IMG/VR virus record: IMGVR_UViG_3300010148_000098
Location: 1-25,925 of that record
Source of the DNA: a virus
Direction: 5' to 3' (one strand)
Length of the DNA stretch: 25,925 bases
Part shown: piece by piece, positions 3,818-25,905 of the stretch
Position numbering within the stretch: the first letter of the stretch is position 1
Layout of the letters: the number at the start of each line of letters is the position of its first letter
Translations under genes and position numbers: made by a program
Notes under the pieces: generated by a model
Databases searched by the model: none
What the model was told of the DNA's origin: nothing
Seen by the model: only the letters and a program-made list of their open reading frames with translations

Positions 3818-5653
3818 CTATTGGAAACCACTATCTTTTTGCTTAGAAGTAGGGTCTTTCGCGGCTTGAATGCTATCAAGTGCTTCTTCTAAAGGTGATT
3901 TTTTAGCACCGCGTTGATTCTTCTTAGGTGAAGGTGCGCCGGATTGATGAGTTTCAGAACTAATAGGCGCAGGTCCATTATCGCGTTGCCCTGTTCCTTC
4001 ACCCAACCCTAATGCTTTTTCCATCATCATAATCGGTGTGCCACCACCGGGTGACGCTCCGCCACTAGGAGAAGCCCCTGCTCCCGGTGGCATCATCGCG
4101 CCCGCACCCTGTGGAGGTAAGCCGCCCCCCGGCGGCATAGGTGGAGGCATACCGCCACCGGGTGGCATACCCGGCGGCATAGGCATTCCGCCCGCCGCGC
4201 CACCTTGCTGTTGCATCATGGCTTCTTGCGGGTCGGGTTTCTTGTAAACAAAGCGTATATCGCGACCAGCATCTTCAGTCAACTCCGGTTGGAAACCAAG
4301 TTGTTGCATACGCTGTGCGATGTTAACTTCTTGCTCATCGCGTCTTAGTCGTGTGATTTCATCTTCTTCTTCATTCGGGTATAGCGTCAAAGACCAATCT
4401 TCAACGCCCATTTGGTCTAACAGACGAGGGAATAATTCGCGTGAATATAATTTCTGTCCCGACTCAACTGCTCGATTAGTAACAAGTATCTGCATACCTT
4501 CGTTATTCAGTCCACCGGATTTTCCAGCATCCATCATAAACACATTAGAAACACCATAGAAAGCCGCTATACGCATTCGTATTTCATCACGAACTTGAGC
4601 GTATTGCATTTCATCAAGACTATCCATAAAGCGTACAAACTCAACTTTACCACGACCGGACGCAGATTCAACACCAACTTTCGGTATGTAGTGTGGGTCG
4701 CGTTCCATCTTCTCTTCCGCACCCTTCCAAAATGAAGCGGTTGATTGAATATTATCAGTGGTGATAGCGAGTACACCGCGTGGGATTCTTCGCTTTTGAT
4801 ATGCGAGATAGATGTAATTATCCATCGCTGTAAGTGACTGTGCTTGCCTCCACATACTAGCGACAGGAGAACGCCCATACAGTTTAGACGGGTTGAACTT
4901 AGACAAGTGTAACACTTCACCATCAATATAGTATTGCGTTTTACCACTACCAGCAGTATTGATGTAATGAACATCTTGGAGAGGGAGAGAACACACTTCG
5001 CACTTCTTATGCTCGCGGTTATGAGGATAGGTTTTGTCACGATGAATAGGACACAAAAGGTATCTGCCACCACGCTTACCTGCTTTGTCAGCAACAATAC
5101 GCATGAATGTTGGGTCACCACGCACTAACTCTTTGACTCGGAAGAACTCTATTTCACCACTATCGGGGTCAATGAAATATTCTTTGATTAGCAACAAGAA
5201 CGCGTCATCAACAATATCTAAATCCCATTCTATCTCTTTCATTATCTCAATGAATGATTGGTCCATACTATTGCGTTGTTTCAATAACCAACGCGGATAC
5301 ATTATTTGGTCTGCCTCCGGGCTATCAAACTCTTCGTTACCACAAATGCGACATTCACTTACAGTATCATGTTGATATTCTTCTTCGCAGTTTGTGCATT
5401 TTTTGTGATACTTCTTCTCCCAATAGTAACCGCGTCTGAAGATTTCTTGACATAGTGTGTTGATTGTAGTTCGCAAAATAATCGACTCTTGAACAGTCGC
5501 GTAAAGTGCAGGTATTGAAACACCTTGTACGAGAACAGGTTCTTGTATGCCCGTTTTCCATAACGGCATCATAGGTTCGGGTGTCGAACGCCTTCTGAAC
5601 GGTTTACTCAGCGAACTTAAAAAACGACCTACTAATCCTTTTTCTTCTGCCAT
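3818..5653 (-). CDS. Portal protein with two inserted zinc knuckles and a Pro/Gly-rich tail
   Basis: This 611-aa protein is the likely portal, the dodecameric ring at one capsid vertex through which DNA is packaged and ejected. The recognisable part is the clip/stem region around residues 250-290, with the Gly-Arg-Ser-Pro motif followed by a helix ending in Lys-Arg-Arg-Ile-Pro-Arg-Gly, and a later helix of the form found in HK97/PBSX-type portals (Ala-Ala-Phe-Tyr-Gly-Val, about residues 365-375). Two metal-binding knuckles interrupt the fold: C86/C89/C101/C104, a rubredoxin-like ribbon, and C201/H204/C218/C221. Residues 490-560 are Pro/Gly/Met low complexity, probably a disordered C-terminal extension. 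The ATG overlaps the previous gene's TAA by one base. Terminase and other packaging genes lie upstream in the same unit. Portal identity is fairly sure; zinc binding is inferred from residue spacing. Confidence 0.85.
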   Translation of the reverse strand: MAEEKGLVGRFLSSLSKPFRRRSTPEPMMPLWKTGIQEPVLVQGVSIPALYATVQESIILRTTINTLCQEIFRRGYYWEKKYHKKCTNCEEEYQHDTVSECRICGNEEFDSPEADQIMYPRWLLKQRNSMDQSFIEIMKEIEWDLDIVDDAFLLLIKEYFIDPDSGEIEFFRVKELVRGDPTFMRIVADKAGKRGGRYLLCPIHRDKTYPHNREHKKCEVCSLPLQDVHYINTAGSGKTQYYIDGEVLHLSKFNPSKLYGRSPVASMWRQAQSLTAMDNYIYLAYQKRRIPRGVLAITTDNIQSTASFWKGAEEKMERDPHYIPKVGVESASGRGKVEFVRFMDSLDEMQYAQVRDEIRMRIAAFYGVSNVFMMDAGKSGGLNNEGMQILVTNRAVESGQKLYSRELFPRLLDQMGVEDWSLTLYPNEEEDEITRLRRDEQEVNIAQRMQQLGFQPELTEDAGRDIRFVYKKPDPQEAMMQQQGGAAGGMPMPPGMPPGGGMPPPMPPGGGLPPQGAGAMMPPGAGASPSGGASPGGGTPIMMMEKALGLGEGTGQRDNGPAPISSETHQSGAPSPKKNQRGAKKSPLEEALDSIQAAKDPTSKQKDSGFQ

Positions 5654-7044: not shown

Positions 7045-7162
7045 CTGATTTCATAGCCTCCGGTCGGCCATTTTCAACCCAACACTTCTTACAAAATCCA
7101 AAAGGGTACAATTCGGGTGTTGTGTAACAACACCCTTTGTAAACCCCTTCGACTTCACTCAA
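7037..7162 (-). CDS. Small Cys-rich (zinc-knuckle-like) protein, 41 aa
   Basis: A short frame fills the space between two larger genes. It starts at TTG 7162-7160, which overlaps the previous stop as TTGA, with GAGGTG about six bases upstream, and ends at TGA 7039-7037 inside the next gene. The peptide has adjacent cysteines at residues 11-12 and a Cys-x2-Cys pair at 24-27, with aromatic residues between, resembling a small treble-clef or ribbon zinc site. The coupling pattern (NTGA overlap plus Shine-Dalgarno) matches neighbouring genes and supports a real gene. An upstream GTG at 7171 is an alternative start. Function unknown. Confidence 0.55.
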   Translation of the reverse strand: MSEVEGVYKGCCYTTPELYPFGFCKKCWVENGRPEAMKSDG

Positions 7163-7836: not shown

Positions 7837-7997
7837 ACCACTCGCACCATTTTTTTCAAAGCAGTTTTTTGTTTATCCATCAAAGCATAGCATGGGCATT
7901 TGGGAGATTTAGCAGAACATTGGTTCCCTTCAATCATGCAAACACATGGTGTCTTTTTTGTACCACCGCAACAACATTTGTCTTTTTTGAGTTTCAT
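7833..7997 (-). CDS. Small Cys-rich protein, 54 aa
   Basis: This frame is short but well framed. ATG at 7997-7995 overlaps the upstream TGA as ATGA, and its own TGA (7835-7833) overlaps the next ATG the same way, so it is the middle of a coupled trio. The peptide carries eight cysteines: three in a row at residues 8-10, Cys-x-Cys at 18-20, Cys27, and Cys-x-Cys at 34-36. The ends are rich in Lys. It could bind zinc or form disulfides. Four overlapping bases at both ends leave almost no untranslated DNA, which supports coding. No family recognised. Confidence 0.65.
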   Translation of the reverse strand: MKLKKDKCCCGGTKKTPCVCMIEGNQCSAKSPKCPCYALMDKQKTALKKMVRVV

Positions 7998-8452
7998 TTC
8001 TTTTTGCCTCCTTTCTTCTTTCCTTTGAACTTACCGCGACAGTATTGAACAGCCCAACCGTTAGCATACGCGCTTGGATAAACCTTGAACTTTCGCTTTG
8101 CTGCTGCTTTACCAGCCGGACATAACTTCTTCTCAAGATAACCAAAAGCCGCTTCAGTACCTACACAAAACTCACAATTACAGTCTGATGATTTAATCGT
8201 CATTTGAGAATTGTTTGCGGGTTGCCTATTCCTATTCACAAGTTCTCTGAATTGTTCCTCTTGTAAACGATTCTGTTCTGCTTTCTGTTTTTGTTGATTC
8301 GCTAAAAACTGCTTTGCTTCATCCGCTTTTTCTCTAAACTTTTGCTCTTGTAAAAGATTCTGCTGCGCTTTCTGTTTTTGTTGATTCGCTAAAAACTGCT
8401 TTGCTTCATCCGCTATTTGTCTAAATCGCCTCTCTTGTTCTTCATCGTTCAA
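7994..8452 (-). CDS. Coiled-coil repeat protein with basic Cys-containing C-terminus
   Basis: The chosen start is TTG at 8452, which overlaps the terminase stop as TTGA and gives 152 aa; a longer form starting at ATG 8518 would overlap the terminase by 70 bases. Residues 10-68 are two copies of a 29-residue helical repeat rich in Gln, Lys and Ala, a likely coiled coil. Residues 91-96 have Cys-x-Cys-x2-Cys, and residues 110-145 contain Lys-Phe-Lys-Val-Tyr-Pro-Ser-Ala-Tyr-Ala-Asn, a motif I associate with small basic proteins of marine viruses (related to DUF5872-type sequences). The tail is Lys/Gly-rich. It forms a coupled set with the two basic/Cys-rich genes downstream. A DNA-associated virion role is inferred only from charge. 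Confidence 0.78.
   Translation of the reverse strand: MNDEEQERRFRQIADEAKQFLANQQKQKAQQNLLQEQKFREKADEAKQFLANQQKQKAEQNRLQEEQFRELVNRNRQPANNSQMTIKSSDCNCEFCVGTEAAFGYLEKKLCPAGKAAAKRKFKVYPSAYANGWAVQYCRGKFKGKKKGGKKK
8280..8414. repeat. Two-copy tandem repeat with a 48-base perfect core
   Basis: The 48-base stretch at 8280-8327 recurs unchanged at 8367-8414, 87 bases later, so the repeat unit is 87 bases or 29 codons. Flanking bases are also similar. It encodes the duplicated coiled-coil unit of the overlapping gene. The perfect core at the DNA level, including synonymous positions, points to a recent duplication or gene conversion. Confidence 0.9.
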
Positions 8453-9849
8453 TCTAACAACCCCGCCATAACTTCGTCTAAGTCCACAATACGCTCGCGG
8501 AACTCGGTAGTAGCCCAATGTGCTAACGCCAATGCGATAGCAAAGTCATCGTGTCGCCCAATGCTATCAAGGCGACCCTTCTTACTCATACCGAACATAA
8601 GCAACTCTCGCTCAAGTTCAGACATGAGCGTGCGTGAACGGTCATCTCCCCACGGTAAACGAATCTGCTCTTTCTCAAAGCGCAACACCAAACCCATGAG
8701 AAGTGACTCACGGCGTTGGCGTGTGGAAATGAATGTCTTGATAGGAAGGTCAGTATCAGCGCGTAATTCAGTCGCGAAGACACGCTGGAAGTTGTTAGCC
8801 TCAAGTTCAATTACATCGGGATTGAACTTCGCATTCAAGCGTTGTATTTCCATAATCTGTGTTCTAAAGTCCATATTCTTACGGCGAATAGCGTGAACTA
8901 ATTCAAGCAATTCGGGATTAGTGGATGGACGACGAAGCACTACCATCACTGTATAGTCTGCTGAACGGTCGCTTGAAATAGCCGGGTCCCAACCGACGAA
9001 GTATTGGTCGTCCGGGTCGCCAACTTCGCGTTCAATCAATTTGAGTGTGCTATCTTTTGAGGCTTGCAAGATAGTGGAAGGGAATAGACTTGATACATCG
9101 TCCATTGGTTCACATAAATATTCGCGAGCAAACGCAATCGCTGGCATATCTGCCCTGCGCGCATCCAATGATTCTAAGTCCCATCGTTCCGGCCATAATG
9201 CTACACCTTGAGTATTTATCGCGGGGTATGTTTCAACAAGATAACCTTCACGGCTTTCAAGTTCAGTGTATAAATCGGTTGGAGTAAAGGGTGTCCCGAC
9301 TATCATTAGTTTAGATGTGTGGTGAAGTGTCGGTACAAGAACTTCGTAAAACCACGATGCAACGCGAGCAAGTTCTGTATCGGTAGTACCCCACAGAATG
9401 TCGTCACAAAGAATCAAATCGGGGTGAATACCACGAATAGCACCACCCACTGATTTCGCGCTAATGTTAGAACCATTGGCAAAACCGAAGAATGTTTTAG
9501 ACCAACTATCCGCCTTCTTCATTTTAGCAAGGAATGGCACACCATCAATTAAATCATTCAGTGTTCGCATGTGGTGTATAGACTGATGCAGACTGTGTGA
9601 AATTAATACTGCTTTGGTCTTTGGATTGAATGCGGTTTTCCATAACATGTAGCCGAGAAACAGTGTTGACTTACCGTGGTCACGCGCTGCTTTTACACAG
9701 TATCGCTTGCGCTTCTCAAGATTGTTATACCATCTTTCATGGTGGTGTGATAATTGAAACCCAAGAATCTCTTCAAAGAAGAACTTGAAGTCGCGCTTCG
9801 CTACTTCAAAGTCAATTTCTTCGATTGCTTCAAGGGATAATTGCTGCAC
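8449..9849 (-). CDS. terL: Terminase large subunit (packaging ATPase and nuclease)
   Basis: This 466-aa protein drives DNA into the capsid by ATP hydrolysis and cuts the concatemer. The ATPase half shows a Walker A-type loop at residues 56-62 (Arg-Asp-His-Gly-Lys-Ser-Thr), Walker B at 144-150 ending in Cys-Asp-Asp, and the coupling motif Gly-Thr-Pro at 185-187. The RNase H-like nuclease half has Asp288 after a Val-Gly-Trp stretch, an acidic pair at Glu348/Glu350, and Asp434/Asp435 in an Arg-His-Asp-Asp-Phe motif, so all three metal-binding acids are present. Length is normal for the family. The start is GTG at 9849, with AAGGTGAT overlapping the end of the previous gene. It docks on the portal, encoded about 4 kb downstream, and needs a small subunit, possibly the zinc/HTH protein at 14589-15257. 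Confidence 0.95.
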   Translation of the reverse strand: MQQLSLEAIEEIDFEVAKRDFKFFFEEILGFQLSHHHERWYNNLEKRKRYCVKAARDHGKSTLFLGYMLWKTAFNPKTKAVLISHSLHQSIHHMRTLNDLIDGVPFLAKMKKADSWSKTFFGFANGSNISAKSVGGAIRGIHPDLILCDDILWGTTDTELARVASWFYEVLVPTLHHTSKLMIVGTPFTPTDLYTELESREGYLVETYPAINTQGVALWPERWDLESLDARRADMPAIAFAREYLCEPMDDVSSLFPSTILQASKDSTLKLIEREVGDPDDQYFVGWDPAISSDRSADYTVMVVLRRPSTNPELLELVHAIRRKNMDFRTQIMEIQRLNAKFNPDVIELEANNFQRVFATELRADTDLPIKTFISTRQRRESLLMGLVLRFEKEQIRLPWGDDRSRTLMSELERELLMFGMSKKGRLDSIGRHDDFAIALALAHWATTEFRERIVDLDEVMAGLLD

Positions 9850-13326: not shown

Positions 13327-14589
13327 TTATACCCCACCTCGTCTTACATACAAGTCGTAGGGATGTGCGCCCCATCGTGTAGCGTCATCATCGGGGTCTG
13401 TTTCAGTTGCCCCTGTTGGATTAGATGAAAGACCACCCGATGAGTTAGGTGATGATTTCTCATCAGCACCCTGCATCGACTTATCCTCTTTACGCATCAA
13501 TCGGCGCAATAGATGGTTGAGTTGGTCTATCAATTGACGATATTCTATCTTATCGCGTTGGTTGAACTTGCCCTTTCTGATAAACTCTTCAGATGCAAGA
13601 ATTGAATCACTTGAGCCGATACCACCAGCGGCCATAGCAGAAGCACGACCACCAGCAAGGGATATGTCCTTCGCGGCTTCAGCACCACCCGGTGTTCTCG
13701 CAGTTCTTGGTTGCCTAGTAGCCTTCTTGTGCGGCTTAGAATCTCTCGACCCTCTAACCGCGCGTGGTATTCTCGCAGTAGGGGTGACTGTTGGAATAGG
13801 CGGTGTTACATCTTGTGTTGGTTGATTCTGCCTTTGCTGTTGCCTCATCGCTTCTGCTTCACGCTCTCTAGGGTTCTCATAGGAGGCTTTTGCCCTAGAA
13901 CGCCCTGTTGAAGTGGTGAGTCTTACAGGCGCGGTTCTTTGCCTGTAAGTGTAACCTCCACCGAATGAAGCATAAGGTGCGCGAGCCGCAGACATAGTAG
14001 CAGCAATGCCGGGTTGACGCACATTCCCTGCTTTCAACGGCACACCGCTACCCTTCTTTCTCCTTCTCCTTTTGATAGACTCGACCCTAACATTCTTTTT
14101 CGCTTTACGCTTCTTCCCTGTTTTCGCTCTTTCGCGCGCTCTTACAGTTTCAATAGTAGTGGTTTTCTGCGGTTTGTCTGTATCATATTTTGGCTCATTC
14201 TTCTTTTTGCGAATCATCTCAAACGCATCGTCGATGTAACCTGTTGTTGACAAAAGAATGTTAGAACCTAATCCGCTAGCATTTGGATTAGCACCCGCGT
14301 TGGCCTCGTTTTGGCCGACCTGCCCTGTCATTTGAGCAAGTTCAGCCTGTTGTTTCATTTGGCTATCTTCCTCATCTTCGGGGTTTTTCTGAGGGATTTT
14401 GATTTTCATATGTTGAATACCATGCAATTTTTTAGCACGCTTATCTTGCTCTTCGCGCTTTTTAGCCTCATGCTTGGCGCGCTCTTCTGAATCTTCGCGA
14501 CCAACACTAGAATCGTCTTGCAACTCTTCAGCACTTTGTCGAGGATTAAATCGTAGTCCAGCGGTACTACCTTCGGGACCGCCAACCAT
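13327..14589 (-). CDS. Very basic, disordered hypothetical protein
   Basis: The start is ATG at 14589, overlapping the previous TGA by one base, with GGGGATGAT just upstream; a TTG one codon earlier is possible but less likely. The 420-aa product is highly charged. Residues 30-55 are an alternating Lys/Glu helix. Residues 150-180 are a dense run of Lys and Arg. Residues 200-320 are Arg/Thr/Pro-rich with Gly/Tyr segments. About 345-368 is an amphipathic helix with Leu repeats. The C-terminal 50 residues are Ser/Gly/Asp-rich. A nucleic-acid-binding or condensing virion protein fits the composition but is unproven. No family recognised. Confidence 0.82.
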   Translation of the reverse strand: MVGGPEGSTAGLRFNPRQSAEELQDDSSVGREDSEERAKHEAKKREEQDKRAKKLHGIQHMKIKIPQKNPEDEEDSQMKQQAELAQMTGQVGQNEANAGANPNASGLGSNILLSTTGYIDDAFEMIRKKKNEPKYDTDKPQKTTTIETVRARERAKTGKKRKAKKNVRVESIKRRRRKKGSGVPLKAGNVRQPGIAATMSAARAPYASFGGGYTYRQRTAPVRLTTSTGRSRAKASYENPREREAEAMRQQQRQNQPTQDVTPPIPTVTPTARIPRAVRGSRDSKPHKKATRQPRTARTPGGAEAAKDISLAGGRASAMAAGGIGSSDSILASEEFIRKGKFNQRDKIEYRQLIDQLNHLLRRLMRKEDKSMQGADEKSSPNSSGGLSSNPTGATETDPDDDATRWGAHPYDLYVRRGGV

Positions 14590-15257
14590 CAAGCATCATC
14601 CCCTATCAGTTTACCGCGTAGTCTAGCCCAAACTTCGGGTGACTCCTTCGCTAACTCAACCTTGAGGATGTTGATAGTTTGAGCATTCATAGTTTCGTTA
14701 GTGTTACCCGCCGCACGCTCTTGGACGCGCATAATGTCTTTCACCGTTTCACGAACTTCTTTGTGCAATGAAACTATGTTGCGCACATATTGAGGGTCAT
14801 TACGGTCAGCATCGTCAAGGAAATGTCCTAATTCACCATTCATACGCGACAGGTTGTTTCGCAAGGATTCCATCTCTTGACCTGCTTCAACAATAATTAG
14901 GTCTGCTGCGCCCTTCTGTACGATAGGTTTGAGATGATGTCTGATATGATGATACACTGTGGATTCCGGTATCTGCAAATCTTCCGCTATTTGTTGGCTA
15001 GTCATAGAGCCGTTGAAATATGCCATCTCAAGAGATTCGCGTTTAGGCGAAGTGCAAAAACCACATTCACTGTTACTCGACATATGATACTCGCCCATAT
15101 GGTTGCGGAAATGACGGTCAGCCGTCCCTTCGCGCCAACCTTTTTGTTTATCCAATTCCTTCGCAGTCATAAGACCGGCTTTCATTAATTCTTCAATACT
15201 ATCGCGGTCGGGGTCTTGACAGAACTTACAGGAGGCCCTAGTTATACGCTCCGCCAT
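14589..15257 (-). CDS. Duplicated zinc/HTH DNA-binding protein, candidate terminase small subunit
   Basis: The ATG at 15257 gives 222 aa beginning with Met-Ala-Glu-Arg-Ile; ATG 15269 and TTG 15323 are alternatives that run toward or into the divergent gene. The N-terminal half is a tandem duplication of one module: Cys-x2-Cys (10/13 and 65/68), a helix-turn-helix, then a His pair (49/53 and 103-108). The second HTH (Ser-Gln-Gln-Ile-Ala-Glu-Asp-Leu, Pro-Glu-Ser-Thr-Val) is a good match to recognition helices that read DNA. Residues 115-195 form a coiled coil suited to oligomerisation. HTH plus coiled coil near terL is the usual design of small terminase subunits, which select viral DNA. A transcription factor is the main alternative. 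It is first in the packaging-gene run. Confidence 0.8.
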   Translation of the reverse strand: MAERITRASCKFCQDPDRDSIEELMKAGLMTAKELDKQKGWREGTADRHFRNHMGEYHMSSNSECGFCTSPKRESLEMAYFNGSMTSQQIAEDLQIPESTVYHHIRHHLKPIVQKGAADLIIVEAGQEMESLRNNLSRMNGELGHFLDDADRNDPQYVRNIVSLHKEVRETVKDIMRVQERAAGNTNETMNAQTINILKVELAKESPEVWARLRGKLIGDDA

Positions 15258-15295
15258 AGCAAAGACCATGTAGTGGTGGCAAAAGAACCTTTTCC
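15258..15295. promoter_or_regulatory. Divergent promoter region, 38 bases or less
   Basis: Only 38 bases separate the proposed starts of the minus-strand zinc/HTH gene (15257) and the plus-strand Cys-rich gene (15296). Neither start has a good Shine-Dalgarno sequence at normal spacing, unlike almost all other genes here. The two genes must either share a very short bidirectional promoter with leaderless transcripts or use promoters inside each other's coding sequence. No clear TATA element was found. The assignment rests on gene arrangement only. Confidence 0.4.
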
Positions 15296-15607
15296 ATGCG
15301 AAAACGCTTACAGCGCGCACCAAAAATTGGCGGAGTTCCTATCTCAATAGGGACCGCGAAGAGTCTTTCGCGTGCTGCCGCTGATTTGATTACTAATCAA
15401 CGCGCTGATGCGAAAGTGAAACAGCAAAGGCTATGGGTTTGCCAAAGTTGTCCCGAAAGACAAGGCATAAGGTGCGGATTATGCGGTTGCTTTTTGAAAA
15501 GCAAATCTATGCTCAAGAACAGCGAATGCCCCATAGGTAAATGGTCAACCTTGATTAGCGAGTCTGCGATAGACGATGCCGGTAGCAGTAAAACAAACGA
15601 AGAGTGA
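15296..15607 (+). CDS. Small six-cysteine zinc-finger-like viral protein
   Basis: This is the only convincing plus-strand gene. The 103-aa protein has a basic N-terminus and then a compact metal-binding core: C49/C52, C60/C63, C65 and C78, in the pattern Cys-x2-Cys-Pro, Arg-Cys-x2-Cys-Gly-Cys-Phe-x-Lys and Cys-Pro-Ile-Gly-Lys-Trp. I recognise this core as a widespread small phage and marine-virus protein of unknown function. The conserved Gly-Lys-Trp end of the core supports the frame. Its 3' end overlaps the convergent two-TM gene by 63 bases. It interrupts an otherwise minus-strand region, so it probably has its own promoter. Confidence 0.82.
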   Translation: MRKRLQRAPKIGGVPISIGTAKSLSRAAADLITNQRADAKVKQQRLWVCQSCPERQGIRCGLCGCFLKSKSMLKNSECPIGKWSTLISESAIDDAGSSKTNEE

Positions 15608-15778
15608 GCCTATAATCCAACTAAGTGTGGTGGAAGTCATATCCGGTCCCGAAAACACCAAGATAAGGAAACAACCCACTGTCAATGAGATTAGTTGCAC
15701 CATTATCATATCAACTATCACTGATTTGCGCAAATTAGTCATATCGCTAACTGCTGCGTAAAAAGAAGTCATATCCAT
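15545..15778 (-). CDS. Small protein with two membrane segments
   Basis: The ATG at 15778 is preceded by GGGAGG about six bases upstream and begins two bases after the preceding gene ends its stop codon region (15780). The 77-aa product has a short hydrophilic N-terminus and two hydrophobic segments, about residues 22-42 and 49-70, separated by a short Pro/Asp turn, then a basic tail: a helical hairpin with both ends probably in the cytoplasm. Tailed-virus holins have similar size and topology, so holin is one candidate, but its place in the GTPase cassette makes a membrane-anchor role equally possible. The last 63 bases overlap the plus-strand gene. Confidence 0.7.
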   Translation of the reverse strand: MDMTSFYAAVSDMTNLRKSVIVDMIMVQLISLTVGCFLILVFSGPDMTSTTLSWIIGSLFVCFTATGIVYRRLANQG

Positions 15779-15779
15779 A

Positions 15780-16361
15780 TCACGGCCTCCCTGTCATAAC
15801 TGAGCGAAGGAATGAACCCGCACCCGACCCCGCCGCTTGAAGCATACCGGGGTCTGCCATCGCATCATTCAGCATACCTTGCATCATACTTTGGTTTGCG
15901 ACTTGCACCATTTGTTGAAACTGCATAGTTTTTTGCTGCACATTGTTTGATGACGCATTAAGAATCTGAGTTTGCGCCATTGTAACACTATCAGCAGTTG
16001 GCATACCCTGCACCGCGCTAAAATCGAACTTGTAACCATCACCATCTTCGACTAGACGCGCATTGGCAAGCATTGTGTTTACAGATACCGCGACAAGACT
16101 ACTTAAAAGCGAAACAAGCATGTTCATATTAGCACCATTATTTTCGGATAACCACTTGTCAATCATAGGGTTCGATGTAATCATAGCAGAAAGAATCTCC
16201 ATTTCAGTAGGTGGTGCTTGATATTGGAAACCATACTGCTGTTGTTGACCCCATTGTTGTCCTTGCGCGGGTGCTTGTTGTTGCCCGTTATTTAGACCAA
16301 GATTCAATGCACCGTTTTGTTGCGGTTGTTGCTGATTATTGTTGTTAAAAGGCCATACCAT
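15780..16361 (-). CDS. Gln/Asn-rich N-terminus protein, 193 aa
   Basis: The ATG at 16361 has GAGGTGGT upstream. Residues 1-50 are a low-complexity Gln/Asn/Pro/Gly tract. Residues 52-90 are amphipathic helix with a weakly hydrophobic patch (about 80-97) that could associate with membranes. The C-terminal half is Met/Gln/Ala-rich helix, ending in Gly-Ser-rich linker. There are no Cys and no enzymatic motif. It follows the 294-aa gene closely in the GTPase/membrane cassette and probably shares its transcript. No family recognised; a structural or oligomerising partner is possible. Confidence 0.8.
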   Translation of the reverse strand: MVWPFNNNNQQQPQQNGALNLGLNNGQQQAPAQGQQWGQQQQYGFQYQAPPTEMEILSAMITSNPMIDKWLSENNGANMNMLVSLLSSLVAVSVNTMLANARLVEDGDGYKFDFSAVQGMPTADSVTMAQTQILNASSNNVQQKTMQFQQMVQVANQSMMQGMLNDAMADPGMLQAAGSGAGSFLRSVMTGRP

Positions 16362-16370
16362 GTTACCACC

Positions 16371-17255
16371 TCACGCGCTTCCCTCATTTTGATGTTGCGG
16401 TAAAGGTAATGGTTCAGTTTGTTTCTGCATTTCGTTAATCGCGAGAGCGTCAAAAAGCAACCTACCGTTATTACCGGCATGAAATTGGCGCATATCAAAA
16501 ACAACTACCACTAAGTCATTCATACCCGTCGCGGCGTTTGTCATATGAGTGATTGGGATGTTGTCTTGCTTGAGCATTTTGAAAAATGGCTCATATTTCG
16601 TCAATATTGGCGGAGTGTTGTCTTTTTTCTTAATTGAGTTGACAGGAACCGCAACTAACGAAACACCTTTTCTCAATTTCGCTTTCAGCGTTCCTGTTTC
16701 CGCTTCTTCTTCCGCTTCTTCCTCTTTTTCCCATTTTGTAAGCAAATGATACAAATGTAAGTGTTCGGGGCAATAAGTGCCGCGCATTTTACGCCCACTT
16801 GTGACATTTTCGCGTGCTACAAAGGCTTCAACCTCTCCCGTAACAGGATTTTTGAAATATATGTCCCATAATGACTGCCCTGTTTCCTCATCAATGATTT
16901 GGTCGTAAATATTACCTGCTACGCGGATAAGATTCTCAATATCGGCCCCATCAATAACACATCTCATAGTATTCGTGTTATATCTGTATTTGCCACCAAA
17001 TAACCACCTGCGAGGCGAAAAAATAGACCTTTTTGTTGGTTTCAGCAACTTATATGCCTGTTTTATGTCCTTTTTGCGCGCTTTTTTGGGGTTTGGATGC
17101 CTAGAAGGGTAAAAATTGACCTGTGGAACCTGTATATGTTGACTCACATTAGTCATAGCAGCCTGTGCAGATGCCTGTTGTTGCATCTGTGCAAGGCTCA
17201 TTTGTGTCTGTGCGGCAAGGTGTAATAGGTCATTTTGGGGTGTTTTTCCAAGCAT
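16371..17255 (-). CDS. Hypothetical protein next to the Arf-like GTPase, 294 aa
   Basis: The ATG at 17255 follows the GTPase stop by four bases, with GGTGAT as the ribosome site, so the two are translated together. Residues 1-45 are Gln/Ala/Met-rich helix. Residues 55-90 are strongly basic with aromatic residues (Phe-Ser-Pro-Arg-Arg-Trp), a plausible membrane- or nucleic-acid-contacting patch. Residues 95-180 and 195-275 look like folded alpha/beta domains, split by a Glu-rich linker (about 176-186). A Cys-Pro-Glu-His-x-His motif occurs near 162. The strand Leu-Val-Val-Val-Val-Phe-Asp near 250 resembles a core beta strand. No family recognised. Its tight coupling makes it the best candidate partner or effector of the GTPase. 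Confidence 0.82.
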   Translation of the reverse strand: MLGKTPQNDLLHLAAQTQMSLAQMQQQASAQAAMTNVSQHIQVPQVNFYPSRHPNPKKARKKDIKQAYKLLKPTKRSIFSPRRWLFGGKYRYNTNTMRCVIDGADIENLIRVAGNIYDQIIDEETGQSLWDIYFKNPVTGEVEAFVARENVTSGRKMRGTYCPEHLHLYHLLTKWEKEEEAEEEAETGTLKAKLRKGVSLVAVPVNSIKKKDNTPPILTKYEPFFKMLKQDNIPITHMTNAATGMNDLVVVVFDMRQFHAGNNGRLLFDALAINEMQKQTEPLPLPQHQNEGSA

Positions 17256-17259
17256 TTAA

Positions 17260-17982
17260 TCACCAACTTAGCATTTTAATCATAGTTTTTTCAACATTCC
17301 AGCCTATTTTAGTCGCCATCATGCTAACGCGACACGGAATACCCGCTTTTTGTAGCCTTCGCATGGCTGGACGGTGTGTGTCAAACACTTTATGTTCACG
17401 CAAACGGTTAGATTGCCACAATATGTTAGCATTTTCGTCCCACCATTCGTCTGCTTTGTTTGCTACAAGCCATATTTGCTTAGGAGAGTATCGTTTACCC
17501 TTGAATCTTGACTTCAAAGAGCGATATTTCCATCTTTTATTGATTAAAGCATCAACAAGATACTCAAAACCACCCACCGCGTCAATAATTTGCGCCCCAT
17601 TCCCCTTCAAAACGCGCGTATCTGTCATAAAAATGACAATTTCGACCTGTCTATCGACCATATCATCAATCCATAGGTTCCAAAAGCGTTGTTGACCGCC
17701 AATATCAGCAGAATGCACTACTCTTTTCTCTCCTTGCCACCTCAATCTCTTTCTCGTAGCCTTCGGAAGCACATACCCACCGCCGATTAACCTTTTTGGG
17801 TGCATAGTACGTTCTTCTATGTCGTCCATTTCGCCCGGAGTGCGCATAAATTGGTCTAATGTGGTTTTTCCGACTTGTGTTGGACCATAAACGCCGATTC
17901 TGCGCGGTTTGATGAAGTTGTAAAGTTCACGACCATAGACAACTGCACCCATAAGCGCGCTACCAGCGAATGTACCAACCAA
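17260..17982 (-). CDS. Arf/SRP-receptor-beta-like small GTPase
   Basis: This 240-aa protein has the G-protein motifs in order: G1 Gly-x4-Gly-Lys-Thr at 33-40, a possible switch I threonine (59 or 76), G3 Asp-Ile-Gly-Gly-Gln at 93-97 followed by Gln-Arg-Phe-Trp as in Arf/Sar/SRbeta proteins, and G4 Asn-Lys-Ala-Asp at 175-178. Ser/Ala near 215-220 could be G5. Gln97 is at the place of the catalytic glutamine, so GTP hydrolysis looks possible. Residues 3-24 are a weakly hydrophobic or amphipathic helix preceding the G domain, like the membrane-binding N-terminus of Arf. The start appears to be TTG at 17982, just after the previous stop; ATG at 17952 is the alternative. It lies between two TM-protein genes and a 294-aa unknown. 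Family membership is strong; its role in the virus is unknown. Confidence 0.88.
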   Translation of the reverse strand: MVGTFAGSALMGAVVYGRELYNFIKPRRIGVYGPTQVGKTTLDQFMRTPGEMDDIEERTMHPKRLIGGGYVLPKATRKRLRWQGEKRVVHSADIGGQQRFWNLWIDDMVDRQVEIVIFMTDTRVLKGNGAQIIDAVGGFEYLVDALINKRWKYRSLKSRFKGKRYSPKQIWLVANKADEWWDENANILWQSNRLREHKVFDTHRPAMRRLQKAGIPCRVSMMATKIGWNVEKTMIKMLSW

Positions 17983-18219
17983 TTAACCCACCCATCCGCG
18001 TATTTTGTTGTAAAACCATTCAACGGTGTTCTCCCAAAGGCTAACATCTGTCTGTAATTCAAGATATGAAACCGTTAGAGCAGTTACAACACCTGTCACA
18101 ACACAAAATATCAACGCTCTTCCGCGCTCATAGTAAGTATCTAAGGTATTTTGTGTGTGCAAAGCGCGTAATGTCGCTTCGGTAGCGTCGTCGCTTGGGG
18201 TTTTGAATAACCAACCCAT
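17983..18219 (-). CDS. Small single-pass membrane protein, 78 aa
   Basis: The ATG at 18219 is chosen because GGAGTGAT precedes it by about five bases; an upstream in-frame start at 18282 would overlap the previous gene. The first 33 residues are hydrophilic, residues 35-53 are a membrane segment, and the C-terminus is aromatic (Trp, Tyr, Phe) and amphipathic. No signal-peptide cleavage site is obvious. Its stop is directly followed by the GTPase start, so the pair is co-translated. A membrane anchor or receptor for the GTPase, as SRalpha/SRbeta pairs are arranged in other systems, is conceivable but speculative. Confidence 0.78.
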   Translation of the reverse strand: MGWLFKTPSDDATEATLRALHTQNTLDTYYERGRALIFCVVTGVVTALTVSYLELQTDVSLWENTVEWFYNKIRGWVG

Positions 18220-18223
18220 ACAA

Positions 18224-18748
18224 TCACTCCTTTTTGGTCTTCTTGTAAGTGCCATTGGGGTTTCTATCTCTGCCACCAGCACCTAGATTGAGTGATTTTT
18301 GGGTATCTGCTTTATGTTGTGGCACTTCATTATCGTCGTTCATCCCCATCAAACCTAAATATTGTTGCACTTCGGGGTCTTTTTCTAACTCTTCCATTTG
18401 TTTAGCGAAAGCAACCTCTTGTTTTTTGATTTCCATTTCCATTTGAGCCTGTGCGAATCGCATTTGTTGGTTTTGCATCTGCCGCGTCATGCTTTTCTGC
18501 ATATTAGATATAACAGCGCGTTGGTCCATGCCGTCTTGCGCTAACATTTTGTAAATGAAATACGACATACCTTGTAATGTAAACGCGCCCATCGTATATG
18601 TTATCGCATTTGTGTAAGTATCTGCTGACTTGAGCCACAGACTAGCATCAAACACCGCAATCGCGCATCCTACGAGTACGCTTACGAATGATATTAACCC
18701 TAAAATCCTCAATTCATCTGTGTTGTTTTGTGACCTGTTGCCTTGCAT
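18224..18748 (-). CDS. Two-TM coiled-coil membrane protein, first gene of the GTPase cassette
   Basis: The ATG at 18748 has AAGGAGGT about seven bases upstream, one of the best ribosome sites in the window. The 174-aa product has hydrophobic segments at about residues 15-34 and 45-68, a likely hairpin, followed by a long Gln/Met/Lys/Glu coiled coil (about 75-130) and an acidic-to-basic disordered tail. There are no catalytic motifs. Being first after the AT-rich intergenic region, it probably starts the cassette transcript. Coiled coil plus membrane hairpin suggests a scaffold that could recruit other cassette proteins to a membrane; this is inference. Confidence 0.83.
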   Translation of the reverse strand: MQGNRSQNNTDELRILGLISFVSVLVGCAIAVFDASLWLKSADTYTNAITYTMGAFTLQGMSYFIYKMLAQDGMDQRAVISNMQKSMTRQMQNQQMRFAQAQMEMEIKKQEVAFAKQMEELEKDPEVQQYLGLMGMNDDNEVPQHKADTQKSLNLGAGGRDRNPNGTYKKTKKE

Positions 18749-18893
18749 CGCAAGGGACCTCCTTGATATTCGTGTTCGCGATTGGTAAATAACGATTGCT
18801 GAGAATCATTCACCTCATTCTCGATATTATCGTATTATTATCATAATAATATATATTATTCTAATTATCATAATAAAATGATATTATCGAGAA
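18749..18893 (-). promoter_or_regulatory. AT-rich intergenic region: promoter of the GTPase cassette and possible terminator of the giant gene
   Basis: This is one of the few true gaps. Its right part (18817-18893) is almost purely A/T and carries a TATA-like stretch on the minus strand (TATATATT at 18849-18856). An AAGGAGGT ribosome site precedes the 18748 ATG. If the TATA is used, the leader would be roughly 75 bases. The inverted repeat described separately lies directly after the giant gene's stop and could end its transcript. Whether TATA or a bacterial promoter is used depends on the host. Confidence 0.5.
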
Positions 18894-18894
18894 T
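18817..18894. repeat. Long inverted repeat flanking an AT-rich core
   Basis: The arm at 18817-18831 (ATTCTCGATATTATC) pairs with 18880-18894 (GATATTATCGAGAAT) with one central mismatch, and the interior contains further imperfect A/T palindromes (for example around 18833-18851). The right arm abuts the stop of the giant gene. It could be a terminator stem, a regulator-binding site covering a promoter, or a cruciform element. Confidence 0.8.
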
Positions 18895-21800
18895 TAACCA
18901 AGAGTGTCAAACTCTCCGCCTTCACGCGCTCTTGCTTGTTGTGCCTGTTGCTGGTTCAACGCGGCTTGTCTTTGGTTCTCCGCTTGTTGCGCTGCTGCAC
19001 TTCGTACTGCTTCCATATCTGCCGCTGTACCTCGTATTGGTGCATTGTAGTCGTGCATCGCTTTTTGTGCGAAGTCGAATTGCAAGGACTCGTCATAGTT
19101 AGATGGTGTTAGTGCCAAATCGGGATGATGCATAAGCAAAAGCATTTGAGATTCGTCTAACTTACTCGTTATCGAAAGCGGCAAATCATGCTCTTTGTAT
19201 AGTCTTTTCATTTCTGAGAAATCCATACCATCTTCGTTTTCGTCACCGTGTAATATATCTTCACGCGCTTCTCTTCGCATCCAATTAGGATAGTCTTCAT
19301 ACATAAGATTCTTTTTCAGCAAATCAAACTTCTTTTTCTCTTCGTCTGTAAACTCCGCTTCTTGGCTTTGCATAATGTGCGGAGTCACTTCATCGACCCC
19401 ACCACCAATGTTCAACGGTTTTAGTTTCCCATCTGAACCTTCTCCTACAATTGGTAAAGTGCTGCGCCCATTACTATCTTCGACAGGCAGCACTTTCGCG
19501 CCAGCCAACACTTCATTCTTGAAATCTTGAGGGTCAAGGACTAATTTGCCTATTGTAATCTTACCTTTCATATTCAACTTCTTATCCATGTCTTCTTCAT
19601 CTGTGAATCCAGCAAGCATAGCGGCCTCATCATAGAATTGCGGTTGTGTATTATCATCCATTGTCAATTGCGCGAAATTGGCGACGGTTACATTATCGTT
19701 TAAGTTAGGATAATCCAACTTATTCAATTTCCCTTGAATGAATTGCCTAAGTGCCATGCGTTTGACATATTCCTTCCACAACGGTCTGATTTGCTCATTT
19801 ATCGCGGAATCGTGTTCTGAACCTATGCCGCGTTTTTGATTCTGTGCGTTGCGAGTAAACAAGTATGTGTCCTTCAGTTTAGATTTGCTGACACCTTTCT
19901 CCTTCAACATTGACAAAAACTCATCATTCCAAGTAGCGGTCATACCTGTTTCGGTAGGTTCTATCGCGCTACCACCAAACTCTTCCATCAACGCGTTAAG
20001 TTTCTTACTCTCTATGTTAGTAGTGTTTACGCGATTCATTGGTCTTTGTGTACCCGTTACTTTATCAGTAAACTTAGGGTCGTTAATAACTTCCATGATT
20101 GCATCCATTTCATGTTGCTTGAACTTTTCATCTTGCTGCATTCTGTATAGAAGGTTTGTAGCATCATCATCGCCTCTATAATGCATTACCATATCTGCAA
20201 ATGTCGGCTCTTTTGGTCGCCTATGCGGTTCCGCAGGGTCAAACAGACCTTCGTAGTATTCTTTAGATGTCATGAATCTGCCATGCGCGAATATCTTAGG
20301 TTCAAACTGTGTTGCCTTCTTTTGAATTGGTAACTCTTTACCAGCAAAATAATCTGACGGACTGAAACCTAATTCACCTTCTTCGCCCATTGGGAGTGGC
20401 ATTCTTTTCGCCTCTTCAGTCGCGAAATGTCTTTCTGCTAGTTCTTGCAGTTTATCCAAAGGTTCCACGATAGGATGGTCTTCATCACCATGCGCATGTT
20501 TCCTGTGCGGGTGGTTCAAGATTTCATTAACTAAACCGTCAATCATGGCAATATCATCATCACTTGTAGCAGTTTGTTTCGCATACTTAGATAACACCGC
20601 AACCCTATCTTCTAAGATTTTATTGATATGCGCGTCCATGAGTTTACCATGAACTTTACCTTGCATAGTGCCGGAATAAGCACCATACCCCGTACCTGTC
20701 GGTGCTTTGTAAGGAGGGCGTTCTCGGTCTTCTAAATCTCTAAGACCCTGCCCCACATCTCCGCCACTACCCAACACTTCGGCTAATGTTGTCATTTTAG
20801 ATTGCTCCGGCGTTTCCGACTCATCATCCGCAAAATCAAACATCGGAGTTAACGAAAGAGGTTCGCGAGTTTTCTCCTTCTTTCGCGCTTCTATCAAATC
20901 TCTCTTGCTGGTGTATAAGCCTGTTTTCAGCCAATTCTCATACTGTTCGTGTGGCATAGAAGCAGGTCTGAAAGACTGAATAACTTCTTTCAGATAATCG
21001 GGTATTTCTGTTCCACCCGTTCTGTAATCCGCGAGCATAGCGAATAGTTGATTCATAGCATCTTGGCTTCGACTATGTGTGTGATGATTATGCAACTTAC
21101 CTGTTATGAAGTTGCCATCTTGGTCAATGTAACCATTGTGAATCATATCGTTATCTTCCGGGTCGCGCATTCCACTACTGAAACAGTGAGAACACAAACC
21201 GTTTGATATTTTACCACCTATTACACCGGGGTCATCATGTTCACAGTCGGGGCAAGCAATTTGCTCATGGTCGTCTGCTCCCATAGGATGTTCTTCATCA
21301 GAATACATAGGGTGTGAACCCCACGAACCGTGGTCGCGTGGTCGCATATTATCAGCGATGTATTTGTTCATCTTAGGTGAGTTTGAATCTTCACCACTCA
21401 TGCCAGCAACGCGACTCTTTACCCAAGAGGCTGCTTCGCCTCTATTGATATGACCGTGACCGTGACAACTACCGCACAATGTCGGTGCGTTATCGGGCCA
21501 ATTAGAAATCAAATCCGCGCTAATATTACCTTTCTCGATTTCCTCTTCCGCCCCTCTAGTGAAATGTGAGTTCTGATGCCTTCTGCGCATTTCTGCTTCT
21601 GTCAACATACCCATCCCATCTTCTTCGCTGTCATGGTGAGAGTGGTCCGCTGAAGAGTGGTTTATCATGTCTTCGGGGTCTAACCCTAACATCTCTGCTA
21701 CTTCTTCGTCTAGCATACCGACATCCGCGTCTTTCATTATTTTCTCGATTGTTTTTTGGTCTTCAGCAGACAGGCTTTCATGCCCCTTCAATCTTCTGAG

Positions 21801-24800
21801 CGCGCGTAGTTGATTCATGTCGTTTGGTCTTGGTAACGCCTTATTGTTAGTGAAGTGCCTAACACCTGTTCCAGCCATTTCACCCACTTTACCTAACTTG
21901 TAATTGCTGAGTTGGTGCTGATAATCTCGCGTTACCTTTCCAAACTCATCGCCTTGTAAGATGGTGTCATCACCTTCGGGGTACACTTGCAATATCAATT
22001 CGGATAGTCTTTTTTGCATGTATTTATCAAAATGCTCTTTCCTTTCTTCGGGCCTCCACCGCTTGAAACTTTCTAACTTCTTAGTTTCCTTTTGCAAGTC
22101 TTGCATTGCTTTAACTATGTAACCACCAGCACCCATAAATGCACCTAGCGCGTAATCGTCATACCTTTGAATTGAATCCATGTCAGAACGGCTAGCATCA
22201 TTGAATCTCTTTGTATTGTCTTTGACGCGCTTTTCTATCTTCTTTCTCTCTTTGAGCATAGGACCATACTTCGCTTTCAATTGCTCTCTTCTCTTCTTCA
22301 ATATCTCTTTTTGAGAAGGTGAAGAGTATTCACCGGGGTATGTCCTTTCAACCCCATCTTCCATAACTTTCTGCGGTTTGGTCTTTGCTTCATCTGCTTC
22401 TAATTGCGCTAGCAGCCCTTGATAAAGCGCGTGTGCTTGCTCAGTTTGCTGCAAATCATCTTGTGCGCGCTTGAGATTCTTTTCGGCCCTTTTCCTATTT
22501 TTGTTAGGTTGTTTAACAATCCTATCTATCATCGCTTTTCTGCCACTTTCGCTTCTTAGCGCAGACAAAGCAACCTTTCTGTTGTTGCCTTTTTCATCAG
22601 CAATCTTCCCATCAGATAACTCTTGCAGCAAATCCATAGCGTTCAACATCGCTTCATATCTTATTGCGTTAATAGTCATAAGCCGCGCGTTTTCATAATG
22701 AGTATCGTAAGCATCCTCAGAAGGTAACAAAAACGATGAAGCAATCAATTCATTGTTACTGTAACCAGCAGGTCCACTCGCTATACTGTAATCGTGTTCC
22801 TTAAACAACCCGAACTTATTGTAAATATTCTGCGCTCTTGAGTTACCTGTTACAACCGCTTCTTTGATTTTCCTACGAAGTCGTCTTTCGGTTCTATCGC
22901 GCCAACGACTCTTTTCGCCCCTCTTCTCCGCCGCTTCTTCTTTTTCCATCATCTCGTTATATGAAAAACCCCCGTCGGGGAATATGAAATCAGCAATGTT
23001 GGCGATTGACGGTTGCGTGCTAGTATCTCCCATCAAAAACAAGTCTTTGATTTGATTTGATTCTGCATCTTTGTATTTGGTTAGAATCGGAACTTGCATC
23101 ATTTTGCGCGTATAAGGAGTCTTACTCCTACCGTCAAAGAAGCCGGGTGACTCTTCTCTAGCAGTTTCCGCGTCACTTGTCATAAAGCGTGAATGATGAC
23201 ACCCGTTACAATCTTCGGGGTCGTGTATTAGATGTTTGTTGCTCTCGATGAACTCCTTCGGTAATTCTATTTTCTCCGGCAAGAATATCTCACCCCTAGA
23301 GCGTAACTCCGCATCGTCCTTGACAGGACCCATACCATACCTCATTGCAGTTCGATGTCTAGCGAAACGCTTGTTTTGCTCATCAACTTTCATATGATAC
23401 TCATTGTTTTTCGCTTCTGCTCTTCCTCTTTTTTCCAAGAAGCGCAATAATTTACCTGTTGCAAACTCAGACAGGTTACCTTCGCGGAATCCACCTTGAA
23501 CTCTGCTATGGAGATATTGCAAAGCGTTAGAGTAACCCTGCTCGGTCATATCTTCACCAGCGTATCTAACTGCGGCTTCCATGAAATTACTAGGAGAAAT
23601 ACCTAATTCTTTGAAGCGGTTCAATCGCTTGTTCATACTTTGCGCGTAGTCTGCTAAAACCTCGTTTGCGTTTTGACCGAGTAGTCCTGTCAACTCTTTG
23701 TATTTGTTCATCTGCTCTTCTGTCATATTAGCGCGTGAACTACCTTTTTCGTAGTATTCCATAATATTCATCAAATCGTCCGAAGATAGATTCAATTCTT
23801 TGAACTTGTCAAGACCGGCCCGTCTATCCTCCGCCGTTTCATTACCACTATAATTTTTGACTACAAGATTTTTCAGTGTTTGATTTAGCCTACCCATGCC
23901 TATTAGATTATCAACGAAGCCGCTAGTTTCTTTCGCTATTTGCTCGGCGTTTTTACCATAGAAAGCGTGACCTTTACCGAAGTCTTTACCTTCAATACCA
24001 TCCATTATCTTATCCGGGTCAAACGCGGATATAGAATCGCCGTATAACTTTCTCATTTGATATTCGTTATCACTGATTTGACCGCTTGAGTGAAGATATT
24101 CTAGGTTGGCAGTTTCACGATTGACTTTGATTTTGCGCGTCCTTTCGTTACCCTGTTGGATTATCTTTAGTTCATCTTCGGGAGTCATCAATGCCGATTG
24201 AGTGCCTACACCTTCGCGTGCTTCTTTCGCACGCATTTCACGCTCTTCTTTAGTTCCAGCAGCCTGTGCTTCACCTTCAACAACCGCCCTCTTATCTTCT
24301 AACTCGGTGTCTAACACCCCGCCTTCTCTCATCGCGTTCATTAGTGAAAAGTGGAAACCTTCATCGGTATCTATTTGCGCTACTGCATCGCGAACTTCGT
24401 CGCTCATAGGGTCCTTGCCTCTAAGCCAATAACCAGCAATCTCATCGGGTATGTTTGGTGCATCTTCTCTAGGGATTACTATACCCAAGTCTTCTGCCGC
24501 TGCTGCAAGCGAAGGTGACATAGCGTTAGGTGCTTGACCAACTTCAATCTCGCCACCGAACCTACCCGCGCGCCCCGATGTTCCGAATGCTTTCTCTCCT
24601 GTTAGAGCCACCATGAACTTGTTGAACCTATCTTGGATTTTATCGAATGCTTGCGGTACAGTAATTTTTTCATTAGCAGCGACCCTTTCAATATAGTCTT
24701 TGTATATCTTGATTGTTGGAGTAGTGGGTCTATTGAACTTCATCCTAGAAGCCGCTAGTGTGCCTTCACCCGTAGGTTCGATAGAAGTTTCATCGAATAA

Positions 24801-25640: not shown

Positions 25641-25668
25641 CGTATGCCCGATGACAACTCTGCCCTTC

Positions 25669-25674
25669 AATATA
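25669..25674 (-). promoter_or_regulatory. TATA-like element upstream of the giant gene
   Basis: On the minus strand TATATT begins 34 bases before the proposed ATG at 25640. Archaeal TATA boxes sit about 26-30 bases before the transcription start, so transcription would begin within a few bases of the ATG, matching the missing Shine-Dalgarno site. The call depends on the host being archaeal. Confidence 0.4.
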
Positions 25675-25742
25675 CCGATTTTTTTGAAGATTTTTTTTTG
25701 GCCCCATGAAAAAAATATCTGTATTTCGCACGCGGTTAAGGA

Positions 25743-25905
25743 GGGCAAATTGCCGTCGCGACAACGCGACTCCGGCTAACGCGATTTGCCCGTAGCGTCG
25801 CGAATGCTTCGCGATGCGCTCGCGTAACGCAATATGCCGCGCAGTAATGCGGTTTTCACAGGTGACGCGAAACATTTCGCGTGTCGCGGGGTTGTTCGTC
25901 ACCGC
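25743..25905. other. GC-rich block of nested hairpins, no convincing gene
   Basis: Base composition changes sharply to CG-rich here. Visible stems: GGGCAAAT 25743-25750 with ATTTGCCC 25784-25791, enclosing GTCGCG 25755-25760 with CGCGAC 25765-25770 (loop ACAA); GCGTCGCGAA 25795-25804 with 25808-25817 (one G-U); ACGCGAAA 25865-25872 with TTTCGCGT 25875-25882; and GGTGACG 25861-25867 with CGTCACC 25897-25903. It could be a structured RNA leader, an origin or packaging signal, or an intergenic regulatory element. The window ends at 25925, so its full extent is unseen. An open frame across it looks like a by-product of the CG-rich repeats. Confidence 0.6.

Follow-up and report, generated by a model that had tools for sequence, protein, structure and literature searches.

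A Ras-superfamily GTPase as a core gene of a membrane-protein cassette in magrovirus-like tailed viruses of archaea

Based on a 25,925-nucleotide stretch of viral DNA (IMG/VR record IMGVR_UViG_3300010148_000098, positions 1 to 25,925; the window, which means this whole stretch) and on related loci, we have identified a GTPase as a core gene that is inseparable from a cassette of membrane proteins and from a soluble partner with a zinc-type motif, g294. The protein almost certainly belongs to the Ras superfamily. The cassette-bearing viruses form a lineage of tailed viruses of marine archaea that resembles the magroviruses. Eukaryotic membrane traffic has small GTPases as one of its hallmarks, and the Asgard relatives of these proteins lie at the heart of the debates on the origin of eukaryotes. 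Proteins of this kind are known; what appears to be new, within the searches made, is one that tailed viruses of archaea have as a core gene bound to an operon and that, as far as PHROGs shows, would be the first family of small GTPases recorded for prokaryotic tailed viruses.

Organization and distribution of the cassette

The cassette and its neighbours occupy the following positions of the window:

18817..18894, no strand: A+T-rich inverted repeat that separates the giant gene from the cassette; perfect arms of 15 bp (ATTCTCGATAATATC / GATAATATCGAGAAT)
18224..18748 (-): cassette gene 1, g174b; membrane segment, weaker hydrophobic stretch and charged coiled-coil-like region; 136/139 loci
17983..18219 (-): cassette gene 2, g99; one membrane segment, C-terminus ..VEWFYxK; 137/139 loci
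17260..17982 (-): GTPase gene; 240 amino acids, TTG start directly after the TAA stop of the upstream gene
16371..17255 (-): cassette gene 4, g294; soluble, zinc-type Cys/His motif CVxDGx...TYCPEHLHLYH (A3 alignment); 139/139 loci
15780..16361 (-): cassette gene 5, g193; Gln-rich N-terminus and two hydrophobic helices; 81/139 loci by tblastn
15545..15778 (-): cassette gene 6, g77; small protein with two membrane segments and a conserved (V/I)xDM(I/V)M(V/I)Q; 138/139 loci
14589..15323 (-): HTH/Zn protein, candidate small terminase, with HTH hits; 139/139 loci; the next late gene past the cassette
8449..9849 (-): large terminase subunit, TerL (phrog_38, 3.3e-61)
3818..5653 (-): portal protein (phrog_18178, 1.1e-74), nearest to Druskaviridae (HVTV-1, 30% identity)

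In all 139 loci drawn with the GTPase the genes follow one another on one strand in a constant order, i.e., g174b, g99, GTPase, g294, (g193), g77, the HTH gene and on to TerL, which confirms the initial annotation in placing the GTPase within a gene cluster, here a late one, of a tailed virus. The HTH gene accompanies the GTPase in 139 of these loci and TerL in 134. Median gaps within the cassette are 1–9 bp, as opposed to 273 bp between the cassette and the HTH gene. On the other side, the inverted repeat likely marks a transcription-unit boundary. The HTH protein is probably the small terminase subunit (TerS).

The same association is found when the loci are drawn by other genes. Among the loci drawn with TerL that extend at least 9.6 kb upstream, 28/28 carry the GTPase, these being largely the same contigs as the GTPase-drawn set. 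A divergent g294 alignment drew 80 loci with the GTPase present in 77, that is in 77/77 of those covering the site; in the other three, g294 begins within the first 91 bases of the contig. Twenty contigs were drawn with PolB, six of which contain TerL; four of the six carry the GTPase, and the remaining two stop short of its position. No related locus covering the site thus lacks the gene (28/28, 77/77); absence from all related contigs was what the initial annotation had named as refuting its reading.

Conservation of the GTPase equals that of TerL, with mean pairwise identities of 67.0 and 67.2%, respectively, over 7,381 pairs. The other cassette proteins follow with 57% (g294), 45% (g174b), 41% (g77) and 37% (g99). 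Within the GTPase family, identity spans 52–98%, and dN/dS between the window and nine relatives is 0.03–0.06. An IMG/VR scan with the GTPase of the window yielded 142 relatives, a second one started from a divergent member 204.

The membrane proteins differ in their predicted topology. A scan of g174b for two transmembrane segments found only one above threshold in most members, and this protein thus appears to have one clear membrane segment and one weaker; its gene is preceded in the window by a strong Shine-Dalgarno sequence (AAGGAGGTC). Two membrane segments are predicted for g77 in 125/138 members. The start of g99 (MGWLFKTP...) is conserved according to an alignment of starts, while its open reading frame already opens at 18282. 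The structure model of g294 (pLDDT 73) matched no known fold, and a role for g294 as a roadblock/longin or GAP-like partner was set aside on that account, an absence of a match that does not in itself exclude such a role. No MglB/roadblock protein was recognised among the neighbours of the GTPase.

A short LNLG-type motif occurs in 63/81 members of g193, within the N-terminal tail, and in 91/136 members of g174b, within the C-terminal tail, compared to at most seven members in the four control families; it possibly represents a shared docking motif. We dropped the idea that it joins the portal to the cassette, the motif being present in the portal of the window and missing from the portals of distant relatives.

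Several further elements surround the cassette. Where the cassette gives way to the HTH gene, the other strand has a small Cys-rich ORF (CQSCPERQGIRCGLCGCFLKSK; 15296-15607, +). The small DUF5872/DUF6321 genes g225, g54 and g174 (7159-8518) are highly conserved and placed differently among the related loci. Directly before the portal gene, a 463-amino acid ORF (5653-7044) has a LAGLIDADG/HNH-type homing endonuclease domain (phrog_5046, 1.4e-10), and the portal protein itself (3818-5653) carries a zinc-ribbon-like insertion (CTNCEEEYQHDTVSECRICG). At the end of the contig, a giant ORF of 2284 amino acids (18894-25748) features CxxCxGxG-like Cys/His motifs; no match to this gene was found in distant related loci. 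Many contigs (L002, L003, L008, L010, L016, L019 and others) break off close to where the giant gene starts, 7–10 kb upstream of the GTPase, which suggests that the genome ends there or that a repeat disrupts the assembly. Two contigs of ~103–107 kb are permuted.

Signature and fold of the GTPase

The initial annotation had read positions 17260-17982 as a GTPase gene. This is an exact ORF of the (-) strand, G1, G3 and NKAD are present in its product, and with its many relatives, invariant motif columns and low dN/dS it stands far above chance. At the position of the TTG start in the window, the GTPase genes of other loci have ATG. The elements of the protein are, all on the (-) strand:

17911..17976, residues 3-24: predicted N-terminal hydrophobic helix, GSALxGxVxxxxELY (hydropathy, moment)
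17863..17886, residues 33-40: G1 / P-loop, GPTQVGKT; GKTT is invariant in the alignment
17800..17811, residues 58-61: RTxH; invariant in 81/81 and 139/139
17692..17706, residues 93-97: G3, DIGGQ; RFWNLW comes next; Q, E or D at residue 97 across the family
17449..17460, residues 175-178: G4, NKAD, guanine specificity; 139/139
17311..17319, residues 222-224: G5-like MAT, followed by xIGWNVE; 81/81

Invariant columns, in up to 81 sequences, comprise GK, TT, RT.H, D..G, NKAD and MAT. Within the G1 motif GxxxxGK[ST], residues G33, G38, K39, T40 and T41 do not vary, and D93 and G96 of the G3 motif DxxG are kept in 81/81 sequences; in the window, the G3 region DIGGQ-QRFW spans residues 93–101. Thr59 of RTxH follows the P-loop Lys by 20 residues, nearly the distance found for the switch-I (G2) Thr of Ras, and by this spacing may be its equivalent. 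Invariance also extends to residues with no catalytic role (TPGEM, RFWNLW, LWQ, EH, LQK and GWNVE).

An intact catalytic Gln had been taken in the initial annotation as a sign of an active switch. The window indeed has Gln at the catalytic position of G3, but the residue corresponding to Ras Q61 varies across the 139 sequences of the family (Q, 72; E, 55; D, 12), with H in a few loci drawn with g294. The catalytic Gln is therefore not a family feature, and the inference of an active switch from it is not supported. Not every member of the Ras superfamily keeps this Gln, so membership does not depend on it. Canonical cycling, however, is not assured given the Q/E/D variation: either hydrolysis proceeds without Gln or some members cycle in a non-canonical way. 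The residues that bind and sense the nucleotide are strictly kept in the alignment.

Also the amphipathic N-terminus of the initial annotation needs correction. A helix is predicted, moderately hydrophobic and rich in small residues, yet amphipathicity is not established: its hydrophobic moment is low (0.28; 0.27 and 0.50 for the N-termini of two Asgard Arf proteins) and its hydropathy borderline, making it neither clearly transmembrane nor clearly amphipathic. Residues 3–24 may nonetheless be a membrane-associating segment.

No Pfam, NCBIfam or PHROG model matches the viral GTPase at or above its curated cut-off. The sub-threshold profile matches are for the most part to small GTPases, with TIGR00231 (small_GTP) in 22/34 members (best 0.0046) and Arf as the commonest Pfam match (12/34 members, best 0.006). 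An AlphaFold2 model built on 34 sequences (pLDDT 75, pTM 0.74) retrieved GTPases throughout the Foldseek list against the PDB (best E 7.8e-8, probability 1.0). VIA-align 2 gave Z scores of 12.6 for LokiRagO (an Asgard RagA-like protein), 12.5 for GerdArfR1, 12.3 each for Gtr, HodArfR1 and Arl2 of the tubulin-cofactor complex, 12.0 for Arf1, 11.0 for Rab and 10.7 for Ras. Arf and Rag structures are thus tied at the top, with an rmsd of 3.3–3.9 over 161–169 residues for the top chains, and Rab follows just about one Z unit below. Sequence identity to the top-scoring GerdArfR1 (8oum), HodArfR1 (8ouk), LokiRagO (8yl2) and Arf1/Arl2 (Z 12.0–12.6) is 12–19%. Profile–profile comparison by hhalign gave 95.7% with a Ras/Rab set, 88% with Arf and 85% with Rag, the alignments to these three sets spanning G1 to G3/G4; with DRG and an MglA-like protein only the P-loop was aligned.

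That the protein is an unrelated P-loop NTPase with GTPase-like motifs arisen by chance is highly improbable: although no library profile reaches its cut-off, NKAD, DxxG and the switch-I Thr are invariant across a family of 52–98% identity, and the Foldseek, VIA and hhalign results, on which we reject this reading, lead instead to the Ras superfamily, a distinction that the initial annotation had put forward as decisive.

The subfamily is less clear. When the viral profile was run against 195 Asgard genomes, the top matches, one viral contig aside, reached at most 29.7 bits (E 7.6e-7); these are mostly proteins of ~300 amino acids with GPSxAGKTSL and DxGGQxxFWxLW in their GTPase part, and Pfam assigns them to Arf at 1e-15 to 1e-16. 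In the tree, the virus stands beside Asgard Arf-like proteins with a support of 90/76 and outside the starred Ras/Rab and Rag clades, a position that is partly circular as the Asgard sequences grouped with the virus had been chosen as its best hits. Many sequence-annotated Asgard 'Arf' proteins are structurally closest to Rag and also near Arf (PMC10933270). The C-terminal roadblock-type domain of Rag/Gtr is absent; the viral GTPase ends in the model at the last helix of the G domain (230–239), in contrast to the LokiRagO/Rag chains of 284–301 residues. The viral protein is probably on the Arf/Rag side. The term Arf-like, used in the initial annotation, agrees with the Pfam Arf matches, the Asgard Arf/Rag structures and the Asgard cellular hits, and less so with the Ras/Rab preference of hhalign and the tree support of 90/76. 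It is the best label, yet with Pfam matches below threshold and a weak link in the tree to the Asgard Arf-like proteins, the subfamily is unsettled and Arf-family membership not established.

The closest cellular counterparts, i.e., the N-extended Asgard Arf-like GTPases (L198, L199, L201, L202, L204) that are the best cellular matches of the viral profile, share with the virus the P-loop style GPSxAGKTSLxRYL and the switch II DxGGQxxFWxLW. They possess an N-terminal domain of ~100 amino acids that is lacking in the viral protein, whereas in the latter the switch I/interswitch is longer, NKAD is preceded by an insert and there is the N-terminal hydrophobic helix; a very long branch (2.64) separates the two. 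This Asgard domain (RTLEC(D/S)xCxxFDS...) was seen in ~300-amino acid Arf-like GTPases of L198, L199, L201, L202, L204 and L205.

Ras/Rab proteins, including those of giant viruses of eukaryotes, have the fold of the viral GTPase and are among the top Foldseek hits, and Ras/Rab-type proteins of these giant viruses are also the best matches in the viral-structure library BFVD. They are a precedent for small GTPases in viruses, labelled Rab, Ras or Ran; the archaeal virus protein differs from them by its DxGG(Q/E/D), its own invariant signature, its core-gene status and its fixed tailed-virus operon. MglA is, like the viral protein, a prokaryotic small GTPase (bacterial/archaeal Ras-like). In MglA, Thr replaces the Asp of G3 (PMC3000849), an Asp that is kept in 81/81 viral sequences; by this measure the viral GTPase is not an MglA.

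Viral lineage, host and cellular relatives

The 25.9 kb of the window, a fragment, include TerL and portal; further genes of its lineage are known from other contigs with the same cassette. In 12/12 large contigs that carry it (80–118 kb), an ERCC4 nuclease, a chaperonin and PolB are found together; PolB was detected in 12/15 records searched. Genomes of ~100 kb with these three genes have been published as the magroviruses of Poseidoniales (PMC10768690, PMC10160649), and the combination characteristic of Magrovirales (~90–110 kb, PolB, ERCC4 nuclease, chaperonin and tailed-virus head genes) is present in the 12 large contigs. From this match to the published magrovirus description we infer that Poseidoniales, an abundant group in the sea, are the host.

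The GTPase was probably overlooked so far since it stays below the threshold of every curated profile; the magrovirus annotation in the literature relied on Pfam at E 1e-5 (PMC10160649). A GTPase goes unmentioned in the magrovirus papers compared, a set to which the first magrovirus paper and a 2025 paper on Poseidoniales viruses do not belong. A tblastn search with the viral GTPase against the 50,697 phage records of INPHARED gave no match, nor does any PHROG family match, at 1e-3, four genuine Asgard small GTPases (Ras, Arf, Rag and MglA-like). Druskaviridae are related by the portal (30% identity between that of HVTV-1 and that of the window); profiles of the GTPase and g294, run with no positive control, had no match in HVTV-1, HCTV-1, vir335, vir519 and PhiCh1.

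The suggestion in the initial annotation that the gene was captured from an archaeal host is not sustained by a close cellular homologue, none being found in searches whose profile part did not extend to Poseidoniales. In a scan of species genomes, which requires near-exact peptides and from which distant homologues can escape, only three MAG contigs matched (L081-L083). All three carry the viral cassette and are hence probably viral contigs in bins, and recent capture from a host that has a close cellular homologue was rejected on this result. One of them, L082 (JABLTJ010000060.1, 8 kb), was binned in the genuine Asgard MAG HMA_bin2.96 (G015), which has 40 matches of its own to the Arf profile. 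No other viral locus has a G+C content as low as that of L082 (0.368), a value near that of the MAG (~0.34). It represents either a misbinning or an Asgard-infecting relative.

Possible roles of the cassette

The GTPase quite probably acts at a membrane. We propose that it would dock on the cytoplasmic membrane via its N-terminal helix and/or via two membrane proteins, the one with a single transmembrane segment and the one with the coiled coil, and would cycle between GTP- and GDP-bound states. In its GTP state, it may assemble or gate a virus-made membrane complex of g174b, g99, g77 and perhaps g193, or recruit g294 to it, late in infection. The step most likely served would be virion release, for which the cytoplasmic membrane of the host would be remodelled or opened. 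This membrane-associated GTP switch that runs a viral membrane complex late, for egress, is our best explanation, though a tentative one that falls somewhat short of probable. The late expression of the cassette would follow from its strand and position.

Egress, as opposed to another membrane step, is likewise favoured with reservation. In many tailed phages, the lysis genes are found beside or directly before the terminase genes, and the cassette lies directly before the terminase genes, which argues for egress. Archaea that lack pseudomurein need a lysis mechanism unlike the endolysin-holin one, a second argument for this step, and no holin gene had then been identified in isolated archaeal viruses (PMC4456609). 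The likeness of the cassette to a phage lysis cassette consists of its position and its small transmembrane proteins only; there is no significant Pfam/PHROG match that would indicate holin, spanin or endolysin homology of its proteins. In our judgement, g77 and g174b are also more conserved than typical holins, which counts against egress, and membrane proteins beside packaging genes could equally serve entry or assembly. The fullest form of the proposal, in which an Arf/Rag-type switch with dedicated membrane effectors constitutes a GTP-driven machine that opens or remodels the host cytoplasmic membrane for egress, is rather doubtful. If true, it would mean that a virus of archaea has built a GTPase system of the trafficking type, and it would answer the missing-holin problem for hosts with no murein-like wall. 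How tailed viruses exit from archaea with no murein-type wall is an open question (PMC4456609), for which the operon is a concrete candidate. The cassette is now defined, and its products can be expressed and tested.

Among the alternatives, the one that survives best, if still unlikely, is a role in entry or assembly, with virion-associated or assembly-site membrane proteins and a GTPase that controls DNA delivery across the host membrane or head/tail assembly at it. The cassette lies among morphogenetic genes, between the giant late-strand gene and TerS/TerL/portal. Of the neighbours detected, the adjoining giant gene is conserved least, a trait frequent among host-contact proteins, with 22–37% identity in most loci in which the GTPase is ~90% identical, and the LNLG-type tail motif common to g193 and g174b is compatible with a common docking partner. 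However, the similar motif in the portal tail of the window is not kept in distant portals, and we know of no GTPase that is part of a tailed-virus virion, a view of virions and packaging that the initial annotation had expressed and that is upheld here.

Distinctly less probable is manipulation of the host, in which a mimic of a cellular Arf, SR-beta or Rag GTPase would hijack membrane protein insertion or signalling with the help of the transmembrane proteins. The nearest structures and the best cellular sequence matches are indeed Asgard Arf/Rag-like GTPases, SR-beta is a membrane-tethered relative of Arf, and partners with two and one transmembrane segments would fit a client of translocon type. 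Genes for host takeover are usually patchy, though, whereas this GTPase matches TerL in conservation and is confined to a single operon. For a role in defence or counter-defence, which we set aside, PADLOC returned nothing useful.

The preferred reading of a cycling membrane switch also has to be weighed against a structural G-protein whose nucleotide is bound at all times and which acts within the membrane complex as a scaffold subunit with no switching. This has about the same low probability as host manipulation. It would agree with a catalytic position that is Q, E or D (few H) while many non-catalytic residues are invariant. Glu at position 97 need not mean an inactive enzyme, however, as Ras Q61E reportedly has a faster intrinsic GTP hydrolysis, and the sensors of the gamma-phosphate, i.e., the switch-I Thr and the Asp and Gly of G3, are strictly kept.
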